This document shows, in pieces, positions 2,480-45,969 of a DNA stretch of 47,288 bases. Numbering within the stretch: position 1 is the first letter of the stretch; each line of letters begins with the position of its first letter. The DNA is taken from the IMG/VR virus record IMGVR_UViG_3300021351_000001, positions 1 through 47,288 of that record; one strand, written 5' to 3'. The translations under genes were made by a program, and so were the position numbers. The notes under the pieces are model-generated. The model was given only the letters and a program-made list of their open reading frames with translations. It was not told the origin of the DNA and searched no databases. The DNA comes from a virus.

Positions 2480-3310
2480 ATGAAAGCATGGCATTTTTTA
2501 CGAGCAGACAAAAAACTAGGGTATGGTGATAACCGGAAAGTCGTCGTTGGAGAAACGTACGAGGCTGAGTTCCCCTGCAATGGCTATGATTGTCCTACAT
2601 TAGGCAACGCGGGAATGCATGGCAGCATAAAAATCATGGACGCCTTATCCAATGCGCCAGGTCCGATCATATGCAGAGTGGATATCACGGGCGATGTTGT
2701 TGAGGGTTGGGACAAGATTGTTGGTCGAAATCGCGAAGTGCTCGCAATGATAGATGGTACTGAAATATTACGGAAGTTTGCGCGTTTATGCGCATTGGAT
2801 GTTGCGCGCTTGTGGGAGGCCCCGGAGGTAGTAATTAAATACCTCCAAACGGGCGAAGAGGCATATAGGACAGCGGCATGGGGGGATGCAGCAGCATGGG
2901 CAGCAAGGGCGGCAGCAAGGGATGCAACATGGGGGGATGCAGCATGGGCAGCAAGGGCGGCAGCAAGGACAGCAGTATGGGCGGCAAGGGCGGCAGCATG
3001 GGATGCGGCATGGGGGGATGCAGCAGCATGGGCAGCAAGGGCGGCAGCATGGGATGCAGCATGGGATGCAACATGGGGGGATGCAGCAGCATGGGCAGTA
3101 AGGGCGGCAGCAAGGGATGCAGCATGGGATGCAGCAGCATGGGCAGCAAGGGAAGCAGCAAAGGAAGCAGCAAAGGAAGCAGCATGGGATGCAGCAGCAT
3201 GGGCAGCAAGGGAAGCAGCAAAGGAAGCAGCATGGGATGCAGCATGGGAAGCGCAAAACAAACGTTTGACGCAAATGGTCAAAGCCGTGCGTGTATTGGG
3301 AGGGGAGTGA
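2480..3310 (+). CDS. Phage protein with Ala/Trp tetrapeptide-repeat tail (DUF7666-like N terminus)
   Basis: A 276-residue protein in two parts. Residues 1-115 look globular and resemble, from memory, the DUF7666-type phage domain (begins MKAWHFLR, then GETYEA, later an REVLAMIDGTEILRKFARLCALDVARLW helix region given here only in part: EILRKFARLCALDVARLW). Residues 130-262 are a low-complexity tail built from four-residue units such as WDAA, WAAR, REAA and KEAA, with Trp or a charged residue at about every fourth position. This should form a long helix. The DNA has a 12-bp period and several in-frame insertions, and such tracts change length easily. Function is unknown; the gene is well expressed by its AGGAGG site. 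Confidence 0.8.
   Translation: MKAWHFLRADKKLGYGDNRKVVVGETYEAEFPCNGYDCPTLGNAGMHGSIKIMDALSNAPGPIICRVDITGDVVEGWDKIVGRNREVLAMIDGTEILRKFARLCALDVARLWEAPEVVIKYLQTGEEAYRTAAWGDAAAWAARAAARDATWGDAAWAARAAARTAVWAARAAAWDAAWGDAAAWAARAAAWDAAWDATWGDAAAWAVRAAARDAAWDAAAWAAREAAKEAAKEAAWDAAAWAAREAAKEAAWDAAWEAQNKRLTQMVKAVRVLGGE
2870..3255 (+). repeat. 12-bp-period coding minisatellite (Ala/Trp tail)
   Basis: The tract consists of variants of GCAGCATGGGAT and GCAGCAAGGGAA in mostly 12-bp register, around 30 units, with occasional GD or extra Ala insertions that keep the reading frame. Because of the repeat, other frames stay open by accident. Slippage or recombination between units would change the length of the helical tail without shifting the frame. 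Confidence 0.85.
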
Positions 3311-5904: not shown

Positions 5905-7380
5905 CTATGTTAACACTGCCGGACGTGGTTTGACAGCTTTTGCGTTGCGCGGCCAAATACATACATCGCCTTGTTGATGCCAGTCTGCGCCAGTATCGGA
6001 GACGGGAATCTTGCGTAGCTTTTCTGGCTTCCTGAAATCAATGGCATCTTGTACGGTCTGACATTCATTTCCGACACCTTCGATATGGATCGTATTGATG
6101 GATGGATTGACCATCTTCAAGTAGCGACCTTTAGTTTCCGGTGTCAGTTGCATCTCAATCAACTCGTACACAGCTATTTTCTGTTTATTTTTTGGGTCAC
6201 ACAGTCTGGCCAAAAATGAATGTTTTCGGAAATCATACTCCTCACTGTCTATCACCGTTGCTCCCAGCTCGTTGTATATACGCTCGATACCTATTTTACG
6301 GATGATCTCGCGTTTCACTTCCACGTTTTTCTCATCGATCCAACGGCTGACAGGGATCTTGCTGTGATGCAAACATGCAATATCCTTGGGTACTTTTACT
6401 CCATTCAGTCGATACAAGGCAAAACCGTCGCGAAATCTCAACGCCGGGCCACCATCACAATGTAGCTGTTTTTTAGCGTTACGCTTGATATGTTGTGGCC
6501 GCTCCCAAACAACTACGAGACCAGTGTAAGCATCTATACATCCACTCGTCATTACCAGTGTGTATAGATTCTCATATTTTTTTCGTAATTGTTCCTCAAG
6601 CTTAATTAACTGTTGACTGATATAATAATGATGATAACACATCCAATACGCCCAATATGGTACATATAATGGATGCTTTTTGCGCCGTTGACCGATCCCT
6701 CTGTAGATTTCTCCGTAGATCTCACTGTAGATCTCTCCGTAGATCTCACTGTCGATCTCATCGTAGATCTCACTGCGGATCTCATCGTCGATCTCATCGT
6801 CGATCTCTCCGTTGATCTCACTGTTGATTTTATCGCTGATCTCGCCGCTGATCTCACTGCGGATTTCTCCGTAGATCTCACTGTCGATCTCACTGTTGAT
6901 CTCATCGTAGATCCCTCTGTAGATCTCACTGTTGATCTCTCCGTAGATCTCTCCGTTGATCTCATCGCTGATCTCACTGTCGATCTCACTGTTGATCTCA
7001 TCGTAGATCCCTCTGTAGATCTCACTGTTGATCTCATCGTAGATCTCATCGCTGATCTCTCCGTTGATCTCACTGTCGATCTCATCGTCGATCTCACTGC
7101 GGATTTTATTGCTGATCTCGCCGTAGATCTCACTGTCGATCTTAACTTTTGACGATATTTTTTTAACGGCATTACACATGGCTATAGCACTATACGGACC
7201 ACTGGCAAATAACACTAATGGCTGTCGTCTACCTTGATTAGCGTATAGTTCACAACATGCTTTTCTAATCGTATTTTTTTCCTCGGCTGTGTACGGTCCG
7301 GTCCTCAGCCCTAACTCTATGCCGCTCTGAGCATATTCTGGTATTTTATCTCGTTGCTCTTTTGTCAGTTCTGTTATCAT
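5905..7380 (-). CDS. DUF6745-like protein with long Ile tetrapeptide repeat insertion
   Basis: A 491-residue protein. Residues 1-75 (KEQRDKIPEYAQSGIELGLRTGP, LYANQG, VLFASGPYSAIAMC, listed as fragments) and roughly 225-480 (GPALRFRDGFALYRLNGVKVP, RKIGIERIYNELGA, then TPETKGRYLKMVNP) match the ends of the DUF6745 family as I remember it. Between them lies a run of about 38 tetrapeptides with Ile at every fourth residue (units such as SEIY, GEIS, DEIN). In ordinary relatives I know of no such insert. The DNA of the insert is in perfect 12-bp register. The C terminus ends in WHQQGDVCIW, a motif normally at the start of the next protein. Function unknown. Confidence 0.8.
   Translation of the reverse strand: MITELTKEQRDKIPEYAQSGIELGLRTGPYTAEEKNTIRKACCELYANQGRRQPLVLFASGPYSAIAMCNAVKKISSKVKIDSEIYGEISNKIRSEIDDEIDSEINGEISDEIYDEINSEIYRGIYDEINSEIDSEISDEINGEIYGEINSEIYRGIYDEINSEIDSEIYGEIRSEISGEISDKINSEINGEIDDEIDDEIRSEIYDEIDSEIYGEIYSEIYGEIYRGIGQRRKKHPLYVPYWAYWMCYHHYYISQQLIKLEEQLRKKYENLYTLVMTSGCIDAYTGLVVVWERPQHIKRNAKKQLHCDGGPALRFRDGFALYRLNGVKVPKDIACLHHSKIPVSRWIDEKNVEVKREIIRKIGIERIYNELGATVIDSEEYDFRKHSFLARLCDPKNKQKIAVYELIEMQLTPETKGRYLKMVNPSINTIHIEGVGNECQTVQDAIDFRKPEKLRKIPVSDTGADWHQQGDVCIWPRNAKAVKPRPAVLT
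6694..7149. repeat. 12-bp tandem repeat, 38 units in perfect register
   Basis: On the plus strand a GAT begins at 6694 and recurs every 12 bases without a break up to 7138, 38 units in all, typical unit GATCTCACTGTA. Most units start GATC. On the coding (minus) strand each GAT is the ATC of an Ile. No indel disturbs the spacing, although the other positions vary, so the length of the unit is under selection or the array is young. Confidence 0.95.
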
Positions 7381-7414: not shown

Positions 7415-7765
7415 TCACAGTATCAGATCCTCATCCTCTAAATCGCCTAAGAGCCTCTGTACGGCGTCGGAGATAGTCGAGGTAGGTTCAGGTACGTCTT
7501 GACCCCTGGAAACGTCCTGAGCGGCAGTTTGAGTGGCGTCATGGCTATTTAGAGATCCTAGTTCGACTTTCGTTTGCAGCCAATTCCGGTGTCTGGCTGT
7601 GTTTAACCCCCAAATACGCTGTATCGTGGCCTCTCTTTCCTGAGACGCCCGATCTATGGCAATCACCTCGCTAACGCCATCTGCCATCAATCTTGCCTTG
7701 GTTTCCTGATAATCATCTTCAAGGTCTTGCTTAATGTATTCAGTCTGCATATGGCGCTCTGACAT
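7415..7765 (-). CDS. Replication-region protein of unknown function
   Basis: A 116-residue, mostly helical acidic protein. It has a helix-rich first half (SEVIAIDRASQEREATIQRI), a variable Ala/Gln/Thr linker and a short acidic C terminus (LGDLEDEDLIL). It overlaps the end of the helicase gene by 26 bases. The position next to the helicase would suit a helicase partner, and an acidic tail is seen in many partner proteins, but no motif proves this. A second in-frame ATG (MQTEYIKQ) is an alternative start. Confidence 0.65.
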   Translation of the reverse strand: MSERHMQTEYIKQDLEDDYQETKARLMADGVSEVIAIDRASQEREATIQRIWGLNTARHRNWLQTKVELGSLNSHDATQTAAQDVSRGQDVPEPTSTISDAVQRLLGDLEDEDLIL

Positions 7766-8570
7766 ACTTTTGGCATATAGCCTGTTCTATTTTCAGTGTA
7801 TCACCGTAGAAGTTACAGGCTATTGTCGTTCCTGACCCTCCTCCGGTCCCTTTGACGATTCTAACACGCATTTCTTTGTTTTGTTCTCCACATCGCCATG
7901 CTGACAATACAAGTTGCGCACTATTTTCTATACTACCGCTGTCTTTTGCGTCGTGCAGACCGAACCCTTCTTCTTCGTCGAAGTCCGGCTTGCGCTTAAC
8001 CTGACTGGAAACAATCAGCACGCTATCGGTGTTCCTGGCAACTCGTTTCAGTTCCTCGGCGTTTTGACTAACCCTCTCATATCTCGACTTGGAAGCATTC
8101 CCACCCATCAAACCAATGTAATCAACCATGATCACATCGAAGGTTCTGCCGCTTTGGGCAATCAAACGCTCGATATCCGTCGGCTTGACCCTGGCAGCAT
8201 CACAAGTGTAAATATGATCACATGGACCTGTCCTGACTATTTCACCGTTTGTGTATGCCTGCTCCACCGCCCATTGAGGCATATCGTTGCTTATGGCCAT
8301 GAAGCGTTCAAAACAAGCGGTGCCAGGCAATTCTAACTCAAACATGCAAAAAATTAAGCCATCTCTGCATGATACAGCAATATTCTGAAGGATTGCCGTT
8401 TTACCGTGACCAGTATCAGCCATGATAACTACCAGTTCGCCCGGTTTCACCCGACGTATTGCCCCCTTGAATGCAGGTAACCATTGCGACAAGTCAAGAG
8501 TTCGGCTTTGCTGAACAGCGACGAACCGCTTGTATTCATCCTCAAGCTCAAGCATGCTCTTTATGCTCAT
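7740..8570 (-). CDS. DnaB-like replicative helicase (RecA-fold domain)
   Basis: A 276-residue protein with the ATPase core of DnaB helicases and no separate N-terminal domain. Visible motifs: Walker A ADTGHGKTA at residues 51-59, FCMFELE near 74, Walker B VIMVDYIGLM with Asp150, sensor VLIVSSQVKR near 185-193, and HDAKDSGSIENSAQLVL around 206, which is the DnaB pattern of the segment before the arginine finger. It unwinds the phage DNA in a hexameric ring. It overlaps the initiator gene by four bases (ATGA), so initiator and helicase are probably made together. The short length suggests a phage-type helicase loaded by the initiator or by host factors. Confidence 0.9.
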   Translation of the reverse strand: MSIKSMLELEDEYKRFVAVQQSRTLDLSQWLPAFKGAIRRVKPGELVVIMADTGHGKTAILQNIAVSCRDGLIFCMFELELPGTACFERFMAISNDMPQWAVEQAYTNGEIVRTGPCDHIYTCDAARVKPTDIERLIAQSGRTFDVIMVDYIGLMGGNASKSRYERVSQNAEELKRVARNTDSVLIVSSQVKRKPDFDEEEGFGLHDAKDSGSIENSAQLVLSAWRCGEQNKEMRVRIVKGTGGGSGTTIACNFYGDTLKIEQAICQKYVRAPYAD

Positions 8571-9238
8571 GGTGCAATTGCTCCTTTCTTAGGCTTCTTG
8601 TCTGCCCACTGCTTGTAGCGGGCTGCGAAATTCTCAGGACTGACATACTGAGGATCAGCTTCCTTGAGATAGGCCTCGAACCACTTTGCCGTTCGCTCAG
8701 GACCATGCGCATCATGCACCGGCTTCATGGCTTTAGCAAGTCTACCAGCAGGAGGTTCGCCGATATGTTCTTTCCAAAGATCAAAGTACGGCGTAAGCCA
8801 CGTAATATTATTCTTTTCTTTTCTTTTCTTAATGCTTGAGGGTCGCTTGAGCGAAGCTTGAGCCTTGCTTCCAGCTTGCTTAAGCCCAGCTTGTAAAGTT
8901 CTGGCTTTACCGCCTTTACGACCGGCGTTTACTCTTTGGTTGTGAGTCAATTTTAACTCTTCTAACTGCTCTAAAATAAACTCAATATACCACCCTTTTT
9001 CAGGTGCTTGAAGCAAAGCCTGGCACCGCTTAAGCTCTGCTAAAGCATTGCTAAAGCTCTGCTTGTCGGCACCTATCAAAGCGCACAGATAGTCTTCGTC
9101 ACCCTGGATGTACCCGCCCTTAATCCAAAGCTTTGCCATTATGTCAATCAAGATACCTTTAGCGGCATGAGAACAGATCTGTATATCACCACCAAGCCAG
9201 TCGGTAGGGCTAAATTTGAAGTATGGAAGATTGTTCAT
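8567..9238 (-). CDS. Replication initiator-like protein (lambda O/DUF1376-type)
   Basis: A 223-residue protein. Residues 1-90 (begins MNNLPYFKFSPTDWLGGDIQ, then HAAKGILIDIMAKLW) look like the DUF1376-type winged-helix N terminus common in phage replication proteins. A basic linker at about 105-145 (GRKGGKAR, KKRKEK) leads to a C-terminal helical domain (WFEAYLKEADPQYVSPENFAARYKQW, given here in part: WFEAYLKEADP). The part of the gene coding for the linker contains two arrays of 11-bp direct repeats and an A+T-rich purine tract, the arrangement of the lambda origin inside gene O. Directly followed by the helicase. I infer that it binds the repeats and brings in the helicase. Confidence 0.8.
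   Translation of the reverse strand: MNNLPYFKFSPTDWLGGDIQICSHAAKGILIDIMAKLWIKGGYIQGDEDYLCALIGADKQSFSNALAELKRCQALLQAPEKGWYIEFILEQLEELKLTHNQRVNAGRKGGKARTLQAGLKQAGSKAQASLKRPSSIKKRKEKNNITWLTPYFDLWKEHIGEPPAGRLAKAMKPVHDAHGPERTAKWFEAYLKEADPQYVSPENFAARYKQWADKKPKKGAIAP
8803..8833. other. A+T-rich homopurine/homopyrimidine tract beside the iterons
   Basis: On the plus strand the sequence runs TAATATTATTC and then three TTTTC units to CTTAAT. It is the most A+T-rich stretch of the initiator gene and abuts the first 11-bp array. Origins of lambda type have an easily melted segment in this place. Confidence 0.55.
8834..8899. repeat. Iteron array A: six 11-bp units
   Basis: Plus-strand units begin at 8834, 8845, 8856, 8867, 8878 and 8889, exactly 11 bases apart: GCTTGAG three times, then GCTTCCA, GCTTAAG and GCTTGTA. 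The spacing of 11 is not a multiple of three, so the pattern cannot come from the protein sequence. One unit per helical turn is typical of initiator binding sites. Confidence 0.8.
9006..9071. repeat. Iteron array B: five units on an 11-bp grid
   Basis: Related words lie on an 11-bp grid: GCTTGAA at 9006, GCTTAAG at 9028, GCTAAAG at 9039 and 9050, GCTTGTC at 9061; the grid position 9017 is degenerate. The array is separated from array A by about 106 bp. Both are inside the initiator gene. Confidence 0.7.
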
Positions 9239-9509
9239 CTGTCAATTCCTTGATTACCTTTATTAGTCTTTTTATAGGTTCAGAAATATGCACACAGCGA
9301 GTTATTCTGTGTTTATTCATGTGATGCAGAGCGCAGAGCATAACAACATTAGACAGACGGTCATTCTCTGGTATATCGGGGTAGCTGTCGTGGTGCATCT
9401 GTAGCTTGTAAGTGCTGCTGCAACACTGGCACTGTCCGTTATCACGCTGCATTGCGGCAAACCTCAATCGTTGCCATGCGCCACTTAGTTTGTATTCTTG
9501 CCAAGTCAT
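9210..9509 (-). CDS. HNH endonuclease
   Basis: A 99-residue protein with the HNH fold: a cysteine group at residues 27-30 (CQCC), LQMHH at 37-40 with the first catalytic His, then NDRLSNVVMLCALHH around 49-63 with the Asn, a zinc-ligand Cys and the last His. N-terminal WQRLRFAAMQRDNG is typical of phage HNH proteins. Such enzymes nick or cut DNA and often act with terminase or as free homing nucleases; here the gene sits in the replication operon, overlapping the initiator gene by 29 bases. A strong RNA hairpin ends just before its start. Confidence 0.85.
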   Translation of the reverse strand: MTWQEYKLSGAWQRLRFAAMQRDNGQCQCCSSTYKLQMHHDSYPDIPENDRLSNVVMLCALHHMNKHRITRCVHISEPIKRLIKVIKELTDEQSSILQI

Positions 9510-9523
9510 AATGCCTCAAAAGC

Positions 9524-9595
9524 AAAGATCCGGCCACCGCAGCGACAGGGGAAGAGTAACTGAGACGCAAAACCCCAAACAGTGACCGGATCTTT
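9524..9595 (-). ncRNA. Strong stem-loop before the HNH gene
   Basis: Two 14-base arms (9524-9537 and 9582-9595) can pair over their whole length around 44 bases. In the minus-strand RNA the single non-Watson-Crick pair is a U-G wobble; in the plus strand it would be C-A, so the structure fits minus-strand transcription. Inside the loop GGGG and CCCC can form a second short stem. The 3' arm ends about 14 bases before the HNH start codon. It may be a regulatory leader, a processing site or a small RNA. The 72-base length recalls a tRNA, but no T-arm or anticodon arm can be drawn. Confidence 0.6.
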
Positions 9596-9654
9596 AATTC
9601 TGAGTGTTAACATATGCTTTACTCTTTTTCATTTTCGCTGTCCCGACTCTACCA

Positions 9655-9840
9655 CTACTCCTTGCCACTGTCAAGGGGTTTTTCTGCGTTGGCATTGTGC
9701 ACACATGTTCGACAAGGGCCCGTGTTGTCCATCTTCTTAAGTATGTGAATACAGTCGCCACACGGAAACCCATATTCTTCATGATCCAACAATTCAAAGT
9801 TGTCCACTTCACCGTCACGACAATAGTCTTGTAATCCCAT
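9655..9840 (-). CDS. Small cysteine-rich protein
   Basis: A 61-residue protein with CGDC and CRTC motifs 14 residues apart, likely a zinc-binding knuckle. ATG 9840 is chosen; a GTG directly before it is also possible. It overlaps the end of the upstream gene by 26 bases. The long overlapping minus-strand frame 9594-9818 has no such motif and is judged a shadow. No family recognised. Confidence 0.65.
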   Translation of the reverse strand: MGLQDYCRDGEVDNFELLDHEEYGFPCGDCIHILKKMDNTGPCRTCVHNANAEKPLDSGKE

Positions 9841-10027
9841 CACTCACCATTTTTCGTGCATTCATTGTGTCTTGAATTGCGAGCGCCATGAAGTCAGCCA
9901 AGGCTTCTTCAAACCGTTTCCAATCAAGCTGAGGACTTCCGAACGTCTGTGTGTATAAGCGCAAGAAGTCAGATGCAGCTTTTCTGCCTGCCATTTCTGC
10001 TATTGCGCTAATTCCTGTTTTATCCAT
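9815..10027 (-). CDS. Small helical protein of unknown function
   Basis: A 70-residue, wholly helical protein (AIAEMAGRKAASDFLRLY, WKRFEEALADFMALAIQD). ATG 10027 follows AGAGGTGGG, and its ATG overlaps the TGA of a 24-residue upstream frame, which suggests coupled translation. No motif is recognised. Confidence 0.65.
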   Translation of the reverse strand: MDKTGISAIAEMAGRKAASDFLRLYTQTFGSPQLDWKRFEEALADFMALAIQDTMNARKMVSDGITRLLS

Positions 10028-10101
10028 CACCCACCTCTTTCTTGTTGTTTACAGTTTTTTTGCCCCCGCTCAATCAACTTCAGTTCTTCTTCTCTAGTCA
10101 T
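10027..10101 (-). CDS. 24-residue basic microprotein
   Basis: A short frame from ATG 10101 to TGA 10027, preceded by AGGA six bases upstream and ending in TGATG, so that its stop overlaps the next start. The product starts MTREEELKLIERG and is charged. It may be a real small protein or simply a translated leader for the next gene. Support is the ribosome site and the exact stop/start overlap. Confidence 0.4.
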   Translation of the reverse strand: MTREEELKLIERGQKNCKQQERGG

Positions 10102-10131
10102 TGGTTTCCTGGTTATGTCCTTGTGTTAAGC

Positions 10132-10214
10132 GACCACCCGTCTTAGATAACACGATCAGCATAGGTCTCGTAATCCGGTAATCATTTTTTAATGCCGACG
10201 CAAGACGGGTGGTC
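10132..10214. repeat. 13-bp perfect inverted repeat with 57-bp loop
   Basis: GACCACCCGTCTT at 10132-10144 is matched by its reverse complement at 10202-10214. It lies in the 160-base gap between two minus-strand genes, so an RNA from that strand would fold into a long hairpin. The loop has no terminator-like T run and holds no convincing tRNA features. Candidate regulatory RNA, RNase III site or protein-binding site. Confidence 0.65.
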
Positions 10215-10260
10215 TAAGTTGTGGTGTTTACATTATTCTATGATGGACCTCCTTTCCTTG

Positions 10261-10899
10261 CTATTCCTTGATTTTCCAAACACAACCTGGATACTTGAAG
10301 TCATCCTTCTGAGCCCTGGCCGTAGCATCGAGAACCTTCTGGTTCGGCTGTACAAATGACATCGGTATTGTGCCGTCAATAGCTGCCTGCAAGAATGCCT
10401 TCATGTCCACAACTTCCGCGTAGTAAGTCTTCCGTGCGCCTTTGAACTTTGTTACCGGGGGGGTCTTCACTTTGACTTCGGGAAGTGGTGCTTCCAGGAT
10501 CGCGTCTGCCGCCTCTTTGAATCCAAGCCTTTCAGCTTCCTGGGCCTGAGCAAGCCTTTGCTCTTCCTGGGCCTTGCGAGCTGCTTCCCTGGCCTTGCGT
10601 GCTGCTTCCTGTTGGATACGTTGCTGCTCGCGGTCCCAAGCTGTGCAAGCCCGTTCGATCGAGTTGAATATTTCCTCGAACGGTGCACACATTGCATTTT
10701 CTAGTGCACACATTTTCTTGTGTTGCTGAAAGTGGAAGTCTTTCTTCGGCTTCAAGTGTTCTTTGATCTTCTTGACGTTATCTTTCGCCGTTAGAGCAAT
10801 AGACTCCTTCGCCTTTCTTGTTCTTACATCTGTTATCGTGATACTGTTGGATTGTTTTTGCAGTTCAATCGCCATTGTTTTGAAATCGTCTCTTGTCAT
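10261..10899 (-). CDS. Coiled-coil phage protein beside the recombination genes
   Basis: A 212-residue protein. The start MTRDDFKTMAIELQ at 10899 overlaps the previous stop (ATGA). Residues 20-75 are helical and basic; residues 85-135 form an Ala/Arg/Glu-rich coiled coil (ARKAREAARKAQEEQRLAQ); the C-terminal part has KFKGARKTYYAEVVDMKAFLQA and ends YPGCVWKIKE. Proteins of this shape commonly lie next to RecT-type recombinases in phages, and a role in DNA pairing or in recruiting partners is possible, but nothing here proves it. Confidence 0.75.
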   Translation of the reverse strand: MTRDDFKTMAIELQKQSNSITITDVRTRKAKESIALTAKDNVKKIKEHLKPKKDFHFQQHKKMCALENAMCAPFEEIFNSIERACTAWDREQQRIQQEAARKAREAARKAQEEQRLAQAQEAERLGFKEAADAILEAPLPEVKVKTPPVTKFKGARKTYYAEVVDMKAFLQAAIDGTIPMSFVQPNQKVLDATARAQKDDFKYPGCVWKIKE

Positions 10900-45546: not shown

Positions 45547-45969
45547 TTACTCCGTGGCTTTGGGGTTGGGGTTGGGGGTTGATTGTGTGGGTGGATGATC
45601 TCTGAGGTATGCTCCTTGATGGTGGTAGTCCTGGAGGTTGTCATCGGGGTCATAACGGGCGAGTACGAGCTGGTTACGTCGCATAGCTTGCTCGAGGATA
45701 GCCATGATAGTGTAGGTGCGGGCCCGGACACGGTGTCGGGCTGAGGGTCGGGGGGTGCAGAGTATGGTGGTGCCGTTGGGGGTGAGGATGAGATATTTTG
45801 GGATGCCGGACTTGGTTAGGTAGTAGCCGCGACTCTGGCAGTAGCGTATAAGGGAGAGCTCTGCGGGCTTGCTTGAGCGGGGCTTGATCCATGAGACCCA
45901 TTTATTGGCGAGCCTAGCCGGGCTGAGCGTGCGGATCAGTGCCTTAATAGTACTACTGTCTTGGTCCAT
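45547..45969 (-). CDS. Basic protein of unknown function, first of the late operon
   Basis: A 140-residue basic protein. LSLIRYCQSRGYYLTKSGIP and YLILTPNGTTILCTPR give a compact alpha/beta part; a helix follows (ARTYTIMAILEQAMRRNQLV) and the C terminus is Pro/Thr/Asn-rich. It precedes the small terminase with 11 bases between and follows the long divergent regulatory region, so it is the promoter-proximal late gene on this strand. Function unknown; an activator role is only a guess. The ribosome site GAGG is close to the ATG. Confidence 0.6.
   Translation of the reverse strand: MDQDSSTIKALIRTLSPARLANKWVSWIKPRSSKPAELSLIRYCQSRGYYLTKSGIPKYLILTPNGTTILCTPRPSARHRVRARTYTIMAILEQAMRRNQLVLARYDPDDNLQDYHHQGAYLRDHPPTQSTPNPNPKATE

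Follow-up and report, generated by a model that had tools for sequence, protein, structure and literature searches.

A probable replication origin made up of two 11-bp iteron arrays and an A+T-rich 5-bp repeat inside a phage's own initiator gene

We found that the predicted replication initiator gene in the window, by which we mean the whole 47,288-base viral record analysed here, very probably contains the phage's own origin of replication, embedded in the coding sequence, at which the initiator would bind, the DNA would melt and the replicative helicase would be loaded. On the minus strand, a CTYAAGC word is repeated at 11-bp intervals within this gene, forming two arrays designated A and B in the order of transcription (Table 1). 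The arrays start at nucleotides 172 and 344 of the gene, respectively, and the gap between them is 106 bp, the same distance as that given in a preliminary description of this DNA. All of the GCTTRAG-related words listed in that description are present, some as degenerate units (at 8867, 8889 and 9061, and in part at 9006), and array A is irregular, with one unit absent. Array B leads straight into CATTAAGAAAAGAAAAGAAAAG / CATTAAGAAAAGAAAAGAAAAGAAT, a 5-bp purine repeat with four perfect copies, (AAGAA)x4, at 8811-8830 (TRF, period 5), contained within a tract that starts at nucleotide 406 of the gene. With 87% A+T, the segment 8803-8833 is the highest of any 31 nt across the record, and it is likely to be the DNA unwinding element. 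An A+T-rich purine tract had been reported as abutting the first array; the adjacency stands, with array B as the neighbour, but the purines are those of the coding (minus) strand, the plus strand being pyrimidine.

Table 1. Positions of the predicted initiator gene, the repeats within it and the neighbouring helicase gene in the window
Feature	Coordinates	Strand	Remarks
Initiator gene, 223 aa	8567-9238	-	N-terminal winged-helix domain, linker, C-terminal domain; from Pfam/PHROG matches, AF2 model and fold search
Winged-helix domain coding region, residues 24-91	8966-9169	-	AF2 pLDDT ~75-93; PDB fold matches with weak E-values
Iteron array A, 11-bp units, 5 of 6 recognisable	9002-9067	-	Inside winged-helix coding region
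Array A unit GACAAGCAGAG	9067-9057	-	
Array A unit CTTTAGCAATG	9056-9046	-	
Array A unit CTTTAGCAGAG	9045-9035	-	
Array A unit CTTAAGCGGTG	9034-9024	-	One unit missing after it
Array A unit TTCAAGCACCT	9012-9002	-	Follows missing unit
Iteron array B, six 11-bp units CTYAAGCNNNN	8830-8895	-	In linker, directly after NAGRKGGK
Array B unit TACAAGCTGGG	8895-8885	-	
Array B unit CTTAAGCAAGC	8884-8874	-	
Array B unit TGGAAGCAAGG	8873-8863	-	
Array B unit CTCAAGCTTCG	8862-8852	-	
Array B unit CTCAAGCGACC	8851-8841	-	
Array B unit CTCAAGCATTA	8840-8830	-	
Array B/tract junction CAAGCATTAAGAAAAGAAAAG	8818-8838	-	Near-identical in phages L215 and L226, whose initiators are ~34-39% identical
A+T-rich purine tract, CATTAAG then AAGAA x4	8803-8833	-	Likely DNA unwinding element; TRF period 5 x4
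DnaB-type replicative helicase gene	7740-8570	-	PF03796, E 1e-22; phrog_19; 4-nt overlap with initiator stop

By sequence comparison, the initiator is DUF1376-like and is not filed as a member of PF07120, its match to that Pfam entry (E 7e-4, 20.3 bits) falling below the curated cut-off of 30.1. It is also matched by phrog_9327 (primosomal protein; E 7e-9). No O-like family was found for it in the PHROG search, and it is not assigned to the lambda O family; among the iteron-bearing relatives, one (L039) has a C-terminal part that matches phrog_345, which is O-like. In the AlphaFold model, residues 24-91 form a confident helical/winged domain; there is also a long helix, and the K/Q/A/S-rich linker is of low confidence, residues 130-145, for which the tract and the last part of array B code, being poorly predicted. 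A PDB sequence search gave no significant match. The top PDB fold matches of the model were winged-helix DNA-binding proteins with weak E-values, TubR being present among these weak matches, and a comparison with RepA_N (4pt7_B) gave a weak, non-significant E of 0.06 (TM 0.24/0.37). Matches in the viral fold library (BFVD) were DUF1376 proteins, of which there were many, together with Lin1244-like and replisome-organiser proteins.

The 11-bp spacing had been proposed not to be imposed by the protein, and codon-preserving shuffles of the gene bore this out. Specifically, the maximum-window z of 3.7 at lag 11 was equalled in 2 of 1000 shuffles, and the count of six CTYAAGC-like words with another such word +11 or +22 bp along (shuffle mean, 1.06) was reached in none of 20,000; when codons were resampled from the phage's codon usage, the same word-partner count had P = 5e-5. 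These P values are partly post hoc because the word was derived from the same gene, and the relatives therefore provide the stronger, independent evidence. The variable base Y in the coding arrays is always C in the frame where T would give a TAA stop, and C or T in the other frames, as expected if the DNA word had been kept and the code fitted around it. No 11-bp signal was detected in the adjoining helicase gene or in most other window genes tested; two others reached z 2.0-2.4. For the initiator gene of the window, arrays A and B had 6 6-mers in common, compared with 7.1 under codon shuffling, which is not significant (P 0.69). Changes in the GC skew of the record track gene direction, and the origin was not located by skew.

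Single-sequence searches with the initiator or the helicase revealed no close relatives in viral contigs. With a profile made from the window protein and two phage homologues, 335 relatives were detected in IMG/VR, and 80 of these loci were retrieved. Flavobacterium phage vB_FspS_morran9-1 and Leeuwenhoekiella phage vB_LaeS_Arctus_1 are relatives that have been cultured. Codon-corrected spectra (periods 4-40) of 65 nonredundant genes contained only two strong series, 11 (22, 33) and 5 (10, 15) bp, and no such periods were present in 121 other ORFs from the same contigs used as controls (lag 11, p 9e-15; lag 5, p 9e-21). In position-averaged (metagene) profiles of 33 nonredundant relatives, with genes less than 80% alike, 11-bp peaks appeared in the places of array A (gene nt 161-185, z 7) and array B (nt 317-360, z 7.8), with a 5-bp excess after both at nt 353-420. 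These peaks and the tract match the positions in the window, and the two-array layout is therefore a property of the group. The preliminary description had named loss of the words with retention of the protein as a finding that would count against it; we observed the opposite, in that the initiators of these relatives are 20-39% identical, yet periodic words still occupy the same two positions within the gene. The words themselves vary among phages (GCGAACGCAAT, AAGCAATGCTC, TAGCGACCGC and others), whereas their place and spacing are constant, and an A+T-rich tract lies downstream of the array in most relatives. Among the relatives, the two arrays of a given gene have 13.6 6-mers in common, compared with 8.2 under codon shuffling (p 5e-7). 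The arrays keep a conserved spacing of ~175 bp. A joint nucleoprotein complex would be compatible with this, and a loop may form between arrays A and B, although the spacing is no proof of looping. That so many phages of distant relationship have the layout shows selection on the DNA itself, beyond what the protein code requires.

In nine related viral contigs (L002, L018, L021, L025, L212, L223, L226, L230 and L237), we found a second module at a distance of ~5-7 kb from the initiator gene, measured in some cases around a circle, with the same 11-bp words, GCATTAAGA junction and 5-bp repeats as in the contig's own initiator gene. Eight of these second modules are not crossed by any open frame of at least 35 codons, and the ninth is crossed by a frame of 41 codons. 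Since such copies have no reading frame across them, selection falls on the DNA, which the repeats serve; the nine contigs are interrelated and thus represent few independent events. By analogy with SPP1, the second module may be a second origin or a fork barrier. In L020/L002, it is near the large terminase gene. The interpretation of the repeats as a likely origin, already put forward in the preliminary description, is thus supported by the shuffles, by the layout in relatives and by the frame-free second copies in eight phages. No second iteron-plus-tract module was found in the window record. A lone word pair at 45871-45888 on the minus strand (ATCAAGCCCCGCTCAAGC), one mismatch from the iteron pair and located inside ORF 45547-45969, was set aside as a further module, being without a purine tract beside it.

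The same layout was present in 52 nonredundant genes of the phrog_2562 initiator family (mean z ~3.0 for both lag 11 and lag 5), with words such as GTTCAACGACC and GCCACCCGATC followed by AAAGG/AAAGT repeats. For 23 DUF1376 genes from ~300 Pseudomonadota genomes, chosen without regard to repeats, the top mean z was at lag 11 (2.2), followed by lags 22 and 33, and the 5-bp tract was not seen in these genes. A mixed DUF1376 protein alignment was too diverse for scanning. A triple CTYAAGC pattern had 111 matches in bacterial genome contigs, mostly in plain tandem repeats or unrelated ORFs, so that in bacterial genomes the word is by itself no diagnostic mark; among its 47 matches in viral contigs, about half were in initiator-like genes. 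Arrays of CTYAAGC with 11-bp spacing were also observed outside long ORFs in other viral contigs (L013:7200-7251, L024 and L031), the one in L013 sitting just past the end of a DUF1376-like ORF.

Judged by analogy, the best reading is that this origin functions in the manner of lambda ori/O, its closest counterpart being SPP1 oriL(+oriR)/G38P, and we infer that initiator binding, melting, helicase loading and the start of replication would occur at the site. In this scheme, several copies of the winged-helix initiator would bind the 11-bp units of arrays A and B, which, being about one DNA turn apart, would lie on one face, and a nucleoprotein complex would form. Strain from the complex would open the A+T-rich 5-bp purine repeat beside array B. 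The opened strand would probably be read single-stranded by the initiator or a loader in steps of 5 nt, a proposal suggested by the periodicity of the tract, and the DnaB-type helicase from the next gene would be loaded onto it.

In SPP1, the origin is within the coding sequence of the initiator (G38P), G38P binds a second site 12 kb away, and the initiator, loader and helicase genes are together (PMC3485210). The window resembles SPP1 oriL/oriR in that its putative origin is inside the initiator gene, and nine relatives of its phage have the second module; it differs in its 11-bp words and 5-bp purine repeat and in that no second module was found in it, and the likeness drawn here is one of organisation. 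In lambdoid phages, ori is located in gene O (PMC7466680): the iterons occupy the middle of the gene, an A+T-rich region follows them, and the helicase is recruited next. The parallel with lambda O drawn in the preliminary description holds, the order of iterons and then A+T-rich tract inside the initiator gene being the same, but the lambda iterons, four in number, are longer and form one array, whereas the window has 11-bp units, two separated arrays and a 5-bp periodic tract.

RepA_N origins are also located inside rep genes. The initiators of RepA_N plasmids and PLE (PMC7145576) share with the window a winged-helix N-terminal domain and iterons, in addition to the weak fold match to 4pt7, but differ in word length and arrangement, and the PLE origin is non-coding. 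For Francisella phage KIRK, a putative origin with iterons and an A+T-rich region has been predicted in ORF43, a replication gene having a short peptide repeat (PMC7924643). That case is likewise a predicted origin inside a phage replication gene; unlike the present one, it concerns one phage and prediction only, the protein is named Phg_2220_C/TubR-like, and no 11-bp/5-bp rule is described in the available part of that paper. In the literature searched, which did not extend to subscription journals and was in part represented by excerpts, we found no paper dealing with DUF1376 and iterons together and did not meet the 11-bp plus 5-bp rule. Intragenic iteron origins are therefore already known, but the widespread 11-bp plus 5-bp module appears to be undescribed in that literature.

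The arrays could instead be operators by which the initiator autoregulates its gene or the replication operon, with no origin at the site. Such autorepression by a winged-helix protein is conceivable, the sites are within the operon, and some plasmid initiators are known to both autoregulate and initiate replication. We nevertheless regard this explanation as improbable, since the sites are inside the coding region, 170-430 nt past the start codon and not at a promoter, since the A+T-rich 5-bp repeat comes after array B in most relatives, and since the second copies that related phages carry are several kb away from the initiator gene. There is a very slim chance that the repeats are a partition centromere or a packaging site bound by a TubR/ParR-like winged-helix protein, as might be suggested by TubR among the weak fold matches and by the terminase gene near second modules in some contigs; the initiator families, the helicase neighbour and the anatomy of the melted tract, which is that of an origin, argue against it, and no tubZ, parA or parM-like gene was detected among the proteins searched. 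The low confidence and K/Q/A/S-rich composition of the linker would also fit repeats that are a by-product of the protein, that is, a low-complexity, basic or disordered linker made by slippage and having no role as DNA. However, neither 11 nor 5 is a multiple of 3, both periods are stronger than in codon-preserving shuffles, array A falls where the folded winged-helix domain is encoded, some copies have no reading frame across them, and the same spacing with different words is not expected from slippage; this explanation is therefore scarcely credible.

An origin inside the initiator gene is the reading that we prefer. Whether it belongs to a large, undescribed class of phage origins is about an even call; in such a class, winged-helix initiators (DUF1376-like, phrog_9327 and phrog_2562) would carry two 11-bp arrays and a 5-bp purine tract read as a single strand, a counterpart of the DnaA-trio, the specificity of the words would change together with the initiator, and a second copy would act as an origin or fork barrier in some. 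The resulting sequence rule, 11-bp words and then a 5-bp purine repeat in a winged-helix initiator gene beside a helicase/primase gene, could locate the origins of very many uncultured phages from sequence alone. In addition, the odd repetitive linkers of these initiators would be explained by constraint on the DNA and not on the protein. The 5-nt tract points to a step, accessible to testing, in which single-stranded DNA is recognised as phage origins open, and where second copies are present they suggest that the contig follows a two-origin scheme resembling that of SPP1.

Several other repeats were observed in the record. Upstream of the initiator gene are two inverted repeats, at 9515-9604 (23 nt, 83%, 44-nt loop) and 10132-10214 (13 nt, perfect, 57-nt loop), neither having an Rfam match; the region 8500-10300 as a whole had none. 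On the minus strand, a 491-aa ORF at 5905-7380 contains ~37 copies of a 12-bp repeat at 6703-7142, which encode SEIDGEIYDEI-like units and are open in several frames. On the plus strand, the ORF at 2480-3310 has alanine/tryptophan-rich repeats at 2876-3256 (AAWAARAAARDAAWGD).
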